Positions 34,571-38,167 of a stretch of 64,000 nucleotides of DNA are shown piece by piece; the stretch's first letter is position 1; the number at the start of each line of letters is the position of its first letter. Position numbers and translations under genes: made by a program. The DNA is from Pedobacter psychrophilus (GTDB taxonomy: Bacteria; Bacteroidota; Bacteroidia; Sphingobacteriales; Sphingobacteriaceae), in the NCBI RefSeq assembly GCF_001652725.1, contig NZ_LWHJ01000022.1:496001-560000 (forward strand), in the 5' to 3' direction. The notes under the pieces are model-generated. The model saw only the letters and a list, made by a program, of their open reading frames with translations, ran no database searches and was not told the origin of the DNA.

Positions 34571-36025
34571 TTAATTATTTTTATTTAAATGATATCTGGT
34601 TGGGTCGTTTAAGGCTTCGTTGATGTCCATTATCTGTTCATCAATCTTATTTACACATTTAACTATTTGAGGGGTTATTTCGTTGCTGTCCACCATATCG
34701 TCTTCAATTAAAAGCATTAAACCCTTAAGTGTAGCAACAGGACCTCTTATTTGATGAGAGAGGTGACTAGAATATTCTGAAAGTTTTTGGTTTTTGATAA
34801 TTAGATCTTTGGTGCGCTCAGCAATTAATTCTTCTAATCGATGGTTTATCTTATCAACATTATCTTTTTGTCTGGAAACCTCTTCATTTAAAACCTTTAG
34901 TTTATCATTAGAATTTTTAGATTTCTTATTTGTTTTAACTAATAAAAATATAACAAAAAAAGCAAGAATGGCAACAATTGCTGTAGCTATAGATAATTTT
35001 TTTGCGTTTTTCTGTTGCTCAATCGTAAGTTCACTTTCTTTTTGTAGTTGTTGTTGTTTAAGGGTTTGTTGGATAAGATTGATGTTTGAAGTTATGTTCC
35101 TTTTATAGAAAATGCTATCCTGATCATGAACTTCTTTTAAATAAATTAAAGCTTTTTCATAATTTTTCTTTTTAAATTCCAATTCATAATTAGTATAAGT
35201 ATAATCATAAATTCTTTTATCATCACTAACTAATTTAGCAAATGCTTTACCCTCTTGTAAATATTGCTCTGCTTTTAAAAAGTTATTTTTTGCTATATAT
35301 ATAGAGGTTAGATTTAAATTTATAGAAGCAACACTACTATTTAACTCATGAATTTTTGCTTTTTCATTAGCTTCTAATAAAAGTTTTTCTGCTTTATCAT
35401 ATTGATTAGTACTAAAATAAATTACACCTCTATTTTGTAAACTTTGAGTTATTCCAATTGGATTGTTTATTTCATTAAAAAGTTGGCTGCTCTTTTCATA
35501 ATTATTTAAGGCAACGCTATAGTTTTTTTTTCTATAATAAGCATTTCCAATATTTAGATAAGATCCGGCAATTAATTCCTTAATATTTCTTTTTCTAGCT
35601 ATAACAAGCGTTTTCTCATAATATTCTAATGCTTTATCATAATCAATCTCAGCCCATAAGTTCCCAATATTGTTAGAAACTTTCGTTTCTCCAATTTCAT
35701 TCTTTTTGGATTTAAATAATTCTAGTGCCTTTTGATAGTAGTTTAAAGCAGAATCTCTTTGATTGAGGTAATAAAAACCAATTCCAATTACTCGATATGA
35801 TTCGGCAAGACCTTCATAGTAATTAATTAGATTAGCTATTTTTGCGGATTTTTTTGCAGTAAGAATAGTTTGTTCTGGATCAGTTAATCTATTTTGATAA
35901 CCTTTTATATTAAGAGCATTTACAGTAGATGTGTCTTTTTTTAGACTCTTGTCTAAAATGTCATTTTGATAGCCTTGACAGATATTATAAATGAATAAAA
36001 ATAAAAGAGTACAAAAAAATTTCAT
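34571..36025 (-). CDS. Exported TPR sensor with histidine-kinase dimerisation domain but no ATPase
   Basis: 484 residues. A signal peptide (FFCTLLFLFIYNICQG) is followed by about six TPR repeats (residues about 60-320; for example RDSALNYYQKALELFKS, YDKALEYYEKTLVIARK), predicted to be periplasmic. A transmembrane helix lies at about 340-362 (IATAIVAILAFFVIFLLV), then a cytoplasmic coiled coil and a HisKA-like hairpin whose H-box SHLSHQIRGPVATL offers H424 as phospho-acceptor. The protein ends about 60 residues later, where a full kinase would have its HATPase. No frameshifted ATPase remnant fits in the 80 bp before pcrA. It may be phosphorylated by another kinase or signal by dimer change. 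It is divergent from three small exported peptides. Confidence 0.8.
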   Translation of the reverse strand: MKFFCTLLFLFIYNICQGYQNDILDKSLKKDTSTVNALNIKGYQNRLTDPEQTILTAKKSAKIANLINYYEGLAESYRVIGIGFYYLNQRDSALNYYQKALELFKSKKNEIGETKVSNNIGNLWAEIDYDKALEYYEKTLVIARKRNIKELIAGSYLNIGNAYYRKKNYSVALNNYEKSSQLFNEINNPIGITQSLQNRGVIYFSTNQYDKAEKLLLEANEKAKIHELNSSVASINLNLTSIYIAKNNFLKAEQYLQEGKAFAKLVSDDKRIYDYTYTNYELEFKKKNYEKALIYLKEVHDQDSIFYKRNITSNINLIQQTLKQQQLQKESELTIEQQKNAKKLSIATAIVAILAFFVIFLLVKTNKKSKNSNDKLKVLNEEVSRQKDNVDKINHRLEELIAERTKDLIIKNQKLSEYSSHLSHQIRGPVATLKGLMLLIEDDMVDSNEITPQIVKCVNKIDEQIMDINEALNDPTRYHLNKNN

Positions 36026-36227
36026 TTTTGAGCGTTACAGTAAAGATGTTCAATCGAGTTAAATTATTAATTTAAAAAGAAATTAAACTATCTTTTTATT
36101 AAATTTTATGATACAATTATAATTTAAAAGATATAATTTTTAATTATAAAGAATTATTTCTAATAATACATCAAACCTAGCAATTTTGTACGGTACAATT
36201 GATAAATAGTTACAAATTATTAAAAAT
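36026..36227. promoter_or_regulatory. Divergent control region between TPR sensor and TWD peptides
   Basis: 202 bp, extremely AT-rich. A perfect 13-bp palindrome TTGTACGGTACAA lies at 36186-36198, 29 bp before the first peptide start, and could be an operator. No clear -33/-7 pair was identified for either side. Confidence 0.45.
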
Positions 36228-36389
36228 ATGAAAAAATTAATGATAATGTTATTTGTAGTTTCAGCAATAGCTGCAACCTCATGTAAAAAAGAATCTGAAG
36301 TTGCTCCATCAAAAAATGATAAGACAATAAAGATGACTGAAGGTGATGAAGATAATATTGATAAATCTAATGTAGGTACTTGGGATTAA
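36228..36389 (+). CDS. Small lipoprotein peptide ending TWD, copy 1
   Basis: 53 residues. The first 18 form a lipoprotein signal peptide (KKLMIMLFVVSAIAATSC, lipobox ATSC with Cys19). The mature 35-residue peptide is charged (KKESEVAPSKNDKTIKM, EGDEDNIDK) and ends NVGTWD. It is strikingly similar to the next copy (153 of 162 bp identical). The divergent TPR sensor begins 203 bp upstream. A secreted signal, a ligand of the TPR domain, or a processed natural product are possible. No known family is recognised. Confidence 0.7.
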   Translation: MKKLMIMLFVVSAIAATSCKKESEVAPSKNDKTIKMTEGDEDNIDKSNVGTWD

Positions 36390-36399
36390 GCTATAAAAT

Positions 36400-36561
36400 A
36401 TGAAAAAGTTAATGATAATGTTCTTTTTAGTTTCAGCGATAGCTGCAACCTCATGTAAAAAAGAATCTGAAGTTGCGCCATCAAAAAATGATAAGACAAT
36501 AAAGATGACCGACGGCGATGAAGATAATATCGATAAATCTAATGTAGGTACTTGGGATTAA
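36400..36561 (+). CDS. Small lipoprotein peptide ending TWD, copy 2
   Basis: 53 residues, a tandem duplicate of the preceding gene with a 10-bp gap. Nine substitutions separate them, six silent; the three replacements are conservative (Leu to Phe, Val to Leu in the signal peptide, Glu to Asp in the mature part). The lipobox ATSC and C-terminal NVGTWD are unchanged. This pattern of mainly silent differences indicates the peptide is translated and selected for its sequence. Confidence 0.7.
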   Translation: MKKLMIMFFLVSAIAATSCKKESEVAPSKNDKTIKMTDGDEDNIDKSNVGTWD

Positions 36562-36571
36562 ATTATTAATC

Positions 36572-36727
36572 ATGAAAAAGTTAATCATAATTACTTTAAT
36601 AGCTGTTTCAGGAATTGCTGGTGCAGCAACTTTAGGTATGCAAAATAAAGAAGAAGTTAAAGAAGCAAAGCTTCCTATTAATAATTCTGTTAATCAAAAA
36701 AGTGCAAGTGTAGCCACTTGGGATTAA
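36572..36727 (+). CDS. Small exported peptide ending TWD, divergent copy 3
   Basis: 51 residues. The N-terminus (MKKLIIITLIAVSGIAGAAT) is a signal peptide but lacks the lipobox Cys, so the product should be cleaved by signal peptidase I and released in the periplasm, or stay anchored. The mature part (KEEVKEAKLPINNSVNQK) differs from copies 1 and 2, but the end SASVATWD keeps the exact TWD terminus, encoded by the same ACTTGGGATTAA. It starts 10 bp after copy 2, so all three are probably one transcript. Confidence 0.65.
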   Translation: MKKLIIITLIAVSGIAGAATLGMQNKEEVKEAKLPINNSVNQKSASVATWD

Positions 36728-36759: not shown

Positions 36760-36773
36760 AAACTATAATTTGA

Positions 36774-36781
36774 TATATTTG
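36774..36781 (+). promoter_or_regulatory. -7 promoter element of the M20 dipeptidase
   Basis: TATATTTG matches TAnnTTTG and lies 15 bp before the ATG at 36797. No clear -33 TTG was found at the right spacing. It shows that the dipeptidase may be transcribed separately from the peptides. Confidence 0.45.
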
Positions 36782-36796
36782 TATAAATCCTATTTT

Positions 36797-38167
36797 ATGC
36801 AAATTATTAAAAATTACGTAGAAGAAAATCGTCAGCGTTTTCTTGACGAATTATTTGAACTGTTAAGATTTCCTTCTGTAAGTGCAGATCCAAAATATAA
36901 GGATGACATGCAAAAAACAGCGGATTTTGTTGCAGATAAATTAATAATAGCCGGAGCAGATAAAGTTGAGATTTGCTCTACCGATGGCTATCCTATTGTT
37001 TATGGGGAGAAGATTATTGATTCTTCATTACCCACTGTATTAGTGTATGGACATTACGATGTTCAGCCACCAGACCCTATTGAGCTTTGGAAAACACCGC
37101 CATTTGAACCCACACTGCGAGATGGAAAAATCTACGCAAGAGGTGCATGTGATGATAAAGGTCAGTTTTATATGCATGTTAAAGCATTTGAGCTGATGAT
37201 GAAAACTAATACCTTGCCATGCAATATCAAATTTATGATAGAAGGGGAGGAAGAAGTTGGATCTGATAATTTAGGGAAATTTGTTTCTCAAAACAAAAGT
37301 CGCTTAAAAGCAGATGTAGTTTTAATTTCAGATACATCTATGATTAGCATGGAAAACCCTAGTATCGAAACTGGGCTCCGTGGACTTGCATACATGGAAG
37401 TAGAAGTTAGCGGACCAGGCAAAGATTTACACTCTGGCGTTTACGGAGGGGCAGTTGCTAATCCCGCAACCATTCTATGCCAAATGATAGCTTCATTACA
37501 TGATGATCAAAATCATATTACTATTCCAGGTTTTTATGATGGCGTAATTAATCTTTCTGAAGAAGAAAGAAAAGCTTTAAACGATGCACCTTTTGATTTA
37601 GAAGAATATAAAAAAGAACTTTCTATTGATGATGTTTGGGGCGAAGTGGGATATTCTACAATTGAAAGGACAGGCATAAGACCAACCTTAGAAGTAAACG
37701 GAATTTGGGGTGGCTATACTGGTCCTGGTGCTAAAACAGTACTTCCTGCAAAGGCAAATGCCAAAATCTCAATGAGGCTTGTTCCGGGCCAGGATTGGAA
37801 AAAAATATCAGAACTATTTAAAAATCATTTTGAAAGCCTAGCACCAAAATCTGTTAAAATAAAAGTTACTGCACATCATGGAGGTACTCCTTATGTAACT
37901 CCTACAGATTCAATTGCTTTTAAAGCTGCTTATAGAGCAATAGAAGAGTCCTTCGGTAAAGAACCTGTGCCAACTAGAGGAGGAGGAAGCATCCCTATTG
38001 TTGCATTATTTGAAGAAGAATTAGGAATTAAAACCGTATTAATGGGTTTTGGATTGGATAGCGATAGTTTGCATTCTCCAAATGAGAAGTATGACGTTTT
38101 TAATTATTATAAAGGAATAGAAACCATCCCATTATTTCATAAATATTTTGCTGAAATGAGCAAATAA
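36797..38167 (+). CDS. M20-family dipeptidase
   Basis: 456 residues. Metal-binding signatures of the two-zinc M20 fold are present: VYGHYDVQPPDP (His and Asp), ARGACDDKGQF (bridging Asp), and EGEEEVGSDNL (catalytic Glu and ligand Glu). The lid dimerisation domain (DLHSGVYGGAVANP) and the C-terminal ligand-His region (TRGGGSIPIV, DSLHSPNEKY) follow. It hydrolyses dipeptides or related amides in the cytoplasm (no signal peptide). An upstream in-frame TTG (36770) would add 9 residues, but ATG 36797 begins the conserved part. It lies next to the TWD peptides, but broad specificity is expected, so a link is unproven. Confidence 0.9.
   Translation: MQIIKNYVEENRQRFLDELFELLRFPSVSADPKYKDDMQKTADFVADKLIIAGADKVEICSTDGYPIVYGEKIIDSSLPTVLVYGHYDVQPPDPIELWKTPPFEPTLRDGKIYARGACDDKGQFYMHVKAFELMMKTNTLPCNIKFMIEGEEEVGSDNLGKFVSQNKSRLKADVVLISDTSMISMENPSIETGLRGLAYMEVEVSGPGKDLHSGVYGGAVANPATILCQMIASLHDDQNHITIPGFYDGVINLSEEERKALNDAPFDLEEYKKELSIDDVWGEVGYSTIERTGIRPTLEVNGIWGGYTGPGAKTVLPAKANAKISMRLVPGQDWKKISELFKNHFESLAPKSVKIKVTAHHGGTPYVTPTDSIAFKAAYRAIEESFGKEPVPTRGGGSIPIVALFEEELGIKTVLMGFGLDSDSLHSPNEKYDVFNYYKGIETIPLFHKYFAEMSK

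Follow-up and report, generated by a model that had tools for sequence, protein, structure and literature searches.

The RRNPPA signature, in which a secreted propeptide is encoded next to a TPR receptor, has been described (PMC10075063), and phage Phr systems carry duplicated pheromones within one propeptide (PMC11343458). We compared with these systems a locus lying in a window of 64,000 nucleotides of Pedobacter psychrophilus DNA (the window being the whole stretch that was analysed). As in the RRNPPA systems of Bacillota (Rap-Phr, NprR-NprX and PlcR-PapR), a small Sec-exported propeptide adjoins a TPR receptor gene, the candidate signal is a short linear peptide, and the TPR superhelix is predicted to have a similar shape (Z about 20-25). 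Unlike in RRNPPA, where the receptor is cytosolic, the putative receptor is membrane-anchored and periplasmic, a DHp hairpin stands in place of the HTH or phosphatase parts, the host is Gram-negative, precursors can be lipoprotein-like, a single precursor can carry up to about 37 cores, and the system was found in Sphingobacteriaceae only.

The locus shares with AgrC/AIP and ComD/CSP an exported peptide, here presumed to be sensed outside the cytoplasm, and a membrane-bound partner that contains a dimerisation hairpin, but it differs from them in its TPR sensor domain and in that no HATPase domain, adjacent response regulator or dedicated peptide exporter was seen. The TPR sensor kinases of Bacteroidota (FimS, NF053520) have the same series of signal peptide, periplasmic TPRs, TM helix and HisKA-like region; the match of our sensor to the NF053520 profile was weak (86.6 bits against a 600-bit cut-off) and, unlike it, four of five TPR-HisKA relatives in its own genome carry a HATPase domain. 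A second HATPase-less TPR-TM-HisKA protein of this genome (C30, L002 1480-2916; 478 aa, H-box NSHRVRKHMANILG) lies downstream of a Nif3-like gene, and inspection of its surroundings showed no precursors. The precursors also recall that of the yeast alpha-factor, where a signal peptide is followed by spacer-separated tandem copies of one short pheromone; this is an analogy and not homology, and dibasic Kex2-type sites do not recur between the units here.

The earlier note on this DNA knew of no named system of such a kind in Bacteroidota, and our search of open-access text, which included the core sequences, agreed with it, finding neither a description of peptide-based signalling there nor any paper that mentions these peptides. 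The locus looks like an undescribed peptide signalling system of Sphingobacteriaceae, which are soil and water bacteria.

The putative receptor and the precursors of the window

The sensor described by the earlier note, in which a signal peptide and TPRs are joined by a single TM helix to a hairpin of the HisKA type, was confirmed by Pfam, by an AF2 model and by 81 orthologs (Table 1). Its domains follow in the order signal peptide (read from the hydrophobic N-terminus), periplasmic TPR superhelix, single TM helix, coiled coil and HisKA-type DHp hairpin. The results of our Pfam searches showed a TPR_12 match (E=2.3e-22) and a weak HisKA match at residues 416-468 (21.6 bits against a cut-off of 26.9 bits), while the HATPase domain was absent and the orthologs likewise end after the DHp hairpin. 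The sensor is therefore not a complete histidine kinase or two-component kinase. No HTH was found by Pfam or in the AF2 model.

Table 1. Features of the sensor-precursor locus, in positions of the window
Feature	Position	Strand	Description and basis
Putative peptide receptor (sensor) gene	34571..36025	-	484 aa; ORF, Pfam, 81-ortholog alignment, AF2 model
Linker + DHp hairpin	34604..34858	-	residues 390-474; Pfam and ortholog conservation
Transmembrane helix	34925..34993	-	residues about 345-367; sequence reading, continuous helix in AF2 model
TPR superhelix	35111..35932	-	residues 32-305; alignment and AF2 model
Divergent intergenic region, receptor to precursor array	36026..36227	.	202 bp between sensor start and first precursor start
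Precursor 1	36228..36389	+	53 aa, lipoprotein-like (AATSC lipobox), with its KSNVGTWD core at 36363-36386
Precursor 2	36400..36561	+	53 aa, lipoprotein-like (SC lipobox), core KSNVGTWD at 36535-36558
Precursor 3	36572..36727	+	51 aa, signal peptide type-I-like and without a lipobox Cys, SASVATWD core at 36701-36724

The AF2 model, built with the 81 orthologs (mean pLDDT 87.7), predicts seven TPR-like helix pairs, followed by a long membrane-spanning helix that leads to the hairpin; in length and TPR content the protein falls within the range of RRNPPA-type receptors (250-500 aa with TPRs). In the 81-ortholog alignment, the A helices that line the concave face of the superhelix were more conserved than the B helices (2.79 and 2.48 bits, respectively), with R78, N119 and N158 invariant and E75, N118 and Q197 nearly so. 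HisKA kinases usually carry an acidic residue after the phosphoacceptor histidine. The putative phosphoacceptor H424 (codon 34754-34756), R427 and P429 were kept in 81/81 orthologs, and the residue after H424 is a glutamine in 77 of the 81 rather than E or D.

All three precursors of the window end in TWD and carry export signals, as first noticed, with the refinement that precursors 1 and 2 look like lipoproteins and the third has a type-I-like signal peptide. Precursors 1 and 2 are 94% identical and differ by six synonymous changes over 31 sites and three non-synonymous changes over 128, a pattern as would be expected of translated genes. A Cys-less type-I variant is the last gene, preceded by lipoprotein-like ones, in several arrays (L018, L020, L021, L025, L027, L031 and the window). 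Precursor 1 matched the PG1828 lipoprotein family of NCBIfam weakly and mainly over the signal-peptide part, and this assignment was rejected. A palindrome, TTGTACGGTACAA, precedes precursor 1 by about 30 bp (36186-36198) and was not seen at the corresponding place in relatives. The pattern ACNTGGGAYTRR occurs five times in the genome, three of them at this locus, against four for the reversed-pattern control; the decisive evidence is therefore conservation in relatives. Counts of TWD followed by a stop were near background across the genus and were not used alone.

Pairing of the sensor with small exported precursors

We searched for the sensor in 80 genomes, and 80 species loci were taken from named genomes, nearly all of them labelled Sphingobacteriaceae (Pedobacter, Mucilaginibacter, Daejeonella, Arcticibacter, Hufsiella and others). 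With this sampling, sensor orthologs were found only in Sphingobacteriaceae. Small Sec-secreted precursors, their signal peptides judged from sequence, lie upstream of the sensor on the opposite strand in 56/56 loci with full flanks, at a median distance between starts of 286 bp (65 loci). This pairing is obligate, and far stronger than the single locus had suggested.

An automatic detector found precursors on the expected side and strand in 55/62 loci, compared with 7/62, 8/74 and 4/74 in three control positions; the seven missed loci with ample upstream sequence hold giant polyproteins beyond its length limit, which were read by eye (L072 and L087 are partly masked). A profile built from 26 precursors, with full-length matches counted at E<=2e-10, matched 18 of the 19 sensor-bearing genomes among G000-G029, and in the remaining one (G007) the sensor gene starts at a contig end. 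The profile matched none of 30 sensor-less genomes (the 11 family genomes of the same set and 19 of other families), and no precursors were seen at 22 distant out-of-family TPR loci checked. Generalised beyond TWD, peptides mostly lacking a nearby TPR sensor, which would have counted against the proposal, are thus not what was observed: the full-length matches in G000-G029 adjoin the sensor. Extra precursor copies in G018 lie on a separate small contig, which is probably an assembly break.

Comparison of the flanks showed pcrA in 51 and an M20 gene in 49 of the 56 full-flank loci within 4 kb of the sensor. These neighbours are themselves largely syntenic, as would be expected if the precursors were structural or surface repeat proteins that merely share synteny with the TPR gene. 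Precursors were, however, still present in all 12 loci where one of these two neighbours was missing from the 4 kb, they are strictly co-absent with the sensor, and no genome among those examined kept many precursors after receptor loss. With the selection of an exact core across different architectures and the co-variation of this core with the TPR concave face (both below), shared synteny alone is very improbable as an explanation. In the window, as in most loci, the M20 dipeptidase gene (36770-38167) comes after the precursors and shares their strand, which might reflect co-expression or synteny alone; between the precursors and this gene of the window lies a hairpin-like stretch, AGCCTTTAACAAAAGGCT.

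Within about 6 kb of the receptor, no modification enzyme was recurrent among the 81 loci; no exporter or regulator recurred in all of them, and no HATPase protein was recurrent beside the receptor. This bears on the view that the precursors are multi-core RiPP substrates of an unlinked modifying enzyme, with the TPR protein as an aid to maturation. Multi-core precursors do exist among RiPPs, and in NCBIfam precursor 1 weakly resembled an MNIO RiPP family, as the sensor did a TPR maturation protein, both far under cut-off. The lack of a recurrent enzyme or RiPP transporter nearby, the ordinary Sec-type signal peptides and the polyproteins without a family match make it the least probable of the readings weighed here. 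The same neighbourhoods speak to antagonism, in which the peptides would be small antibacterial or anti-kin toxins that the TPR protein senses or to which it confers immunity. Secreted, multi-copy, species-specific peptides beside a dedicated membrane protein would suit such a role, but the cores are short and polar and do not look membrane-active, the neighbouring genes include no recurrent modification enzyme or dedicated exporter, and the most conserved segment of the receptor in the ortholog alignment is its cytoplasmic part, which would be odd for pure immunity. We regard antagonism as improbable, though slightly less so than shared synteny.

Variation, repetition and selection of the peptide core

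Apart from their signal region, the precursors have little in common but a core at the C-terminus, whose consensus is about K-x-[DN]-Φ-G-[TSQ]-[AWG]-D. The ending TWD proved to be the version of the window's lineage and not a general signature. Among 70 species, with cores assigned by eye, the last residue was D in 67 and E in 3, positions -4, -3 and -2 were occupied by glycine in 49, by T, S or Q in 53 and by A, W or G in 61, respectively, and 55 distinct cores were counted; the core is species-specific. Strongly departing cores were also seen (TYEE and TYGE). Some precursors extend past the core, as with ...GTWDGRSDSLSNP in L101 of Hufsiella, which makes it uncertain where the mature peptide ends. 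Daejeonella-type cores contain a CxxC (CRGCGDWD; L051, L053, L077 and L114), as does the similar CQNCLGTGD of L109, and judging by these residues the CxxC of the Daejeonella type could form a disulfide ring.

The number of core copies per small exported precursor varied from one to about 37, the core being reiterated inside one precursor in Mucilaginibacter-type loci: five NKKDVGTAD in L062, 29 DKNNTGSGD in L068 and about 37 EKGxTGTGD-like units in L083. When up to four mismatches were allowed in the core, pN between repeat units was 0-0.03 in 16/18 loci (0.09 in L072 and 0.10 in L083), while pS reached 0.5-0.77 in most of the 18. The copies are thus near-identical in protein but far apart at synonymous sites, which shows that the peptide itself is selected; the core is under purifying selection and is not the product of recent DNA duplication. 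In genomes that the core pattern fits, its matches fell almost only in the one array, with all 15-23 matches in each of four genomes and 6/7 in a fifth; the pattern is too narrow for L098, L104, L119 and L075, so that their score of 0 does not mean absence. Profile searches gave no family for the polyproteins, and their matches to FAM47 and collagen-like adhesin profiles were taken as repeat composition.

Variation and repetition of the core also bear on the choice between a pheromone and a sentinel of the envelope. DegS and RseB read the C-termini of OMPs, and by this model the precursors would be decoys whose core builds up in the periplasm when export, lipoprotein sorting or proteolysis fails, the TPR protein monitoring its own envelope and not other cells. 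The periplasmic receptor and the many lipoprotein-like precursors fit this, and the same adjacency and selection would be expected; a sentinel has no obvious gain, however, from 55 cores in 70 species or from 29-37 copies in one precursor. Because the cores are species-specific and the copies amplified, we favour the pheromone and consider the sentinel unlikely, if less so than antagonism.

Co-variation with the TPR domain and the proposed route of signalling

Core distance was correlated with TPR distance (0.65) and with that of receptor residues 300-474 (0.55), the permutations used for these correlations ignoring phylogeny, which when shared inflates mirror-tree correlations. The partial correlation of core distance was 0.44 for the TPR domain given the rest and 0.15 for the rest given the TPR domain; the corresponding values were 0.31 and 0.08 in Mucilaginibacter-like loci and 0.70 and -0.17 in the other loci, respectively, and the order persisted with size-matched TPR subsets. 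Concave helices given convex ones gave 0.35-0.42, compared with 0.02-0.15 for convex given concave. Co-variation of the core with the TPR domain, chiefly its concave helices, is support for a pairing of peptide and TPR domain, not proof of it. When the penultimate residue of the core was compared with each receptor column by mutual information, the signal came mostly from C-terminal columns; it reflects the clade split and was not used.

Structure alignment of the model showed an RRNPP-like fold of the predicted TPR domain, with Z of about 20-27 against APPBP2-degron, Rap-Phr and NprR-NprX and about 22-24 against LGN complexes, a range that many TPR proteins reach; likeness of fold is no proof of peptide binding. 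The suggestion that secreted peptides are sensed in the periplasm drew support from the repeats, the purifying selection, the species-specific cores, the concave-face co-variation and the Rap-Phr/NprR-NprX-like superhelix.

These results are best explained by a peptide pheromone that is exported and that the TPR protein senses in the periplasm, an explanation that in our judgement is probably right. Sec would export the precursors, some to be lipidated and others by way of a type-I signal peptide, and proteases would free a peptide about 8-10 residues long with Asp at its end (DKSNVGTWD-like in the window). This peptide would bind to the divergently encoded membrane receptor, in the groove on the concave side of its periplasmic TPR domain, and the receptor would relay the change through the TM helix to its ATPase-less HisKA-type hairpin, which may act on a separate, unlinked kinase or response regulator. 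A query of the P. psychrophilus genome with the DHp alone gave weak matches only, none of them an obvious partner kinase. With a core specific to each species, the channel would be a private one, like that of a pheromone. We infer the maturation and release of the free peptide, its binding, the direction of signalling, the output partner and the role of the peptides, including their use between cells rather than by the producer itself.

In its fullest form, which we judge about as likely as not, the proposal is of a pheromone language of Bacteroidota, in which private nonapeptides from alpha-factor-like polyproteins would be read in the periplasm by a receptor with an RRNPP-shaped TPR domain and an ATPase-less HisKA hairpin and relayed via a separate kinase or regulator. 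If true, each species of Sphingobacteriaceae, for example in Mucilaginibacter and Pedobacter, would have a private peptide signal readable from its sequence, and the natural multi-copy precursors with a single candidate receptor would make cell-cell communication testable with synthetic nonapeptides. The receptor raises the question of how a HisKA hairpin signals without an ATPase domain, and a TPR-TM-DHp gene with a divergent repeat precursor is a rule usable to seek similar systems elsewhere.

A small XRE-type HTH gene adjoins the sensor in 44 loci, of the Mucilaginibacter type only (for example at 8098-8466 of L052), and it may be part of the output in these loci.
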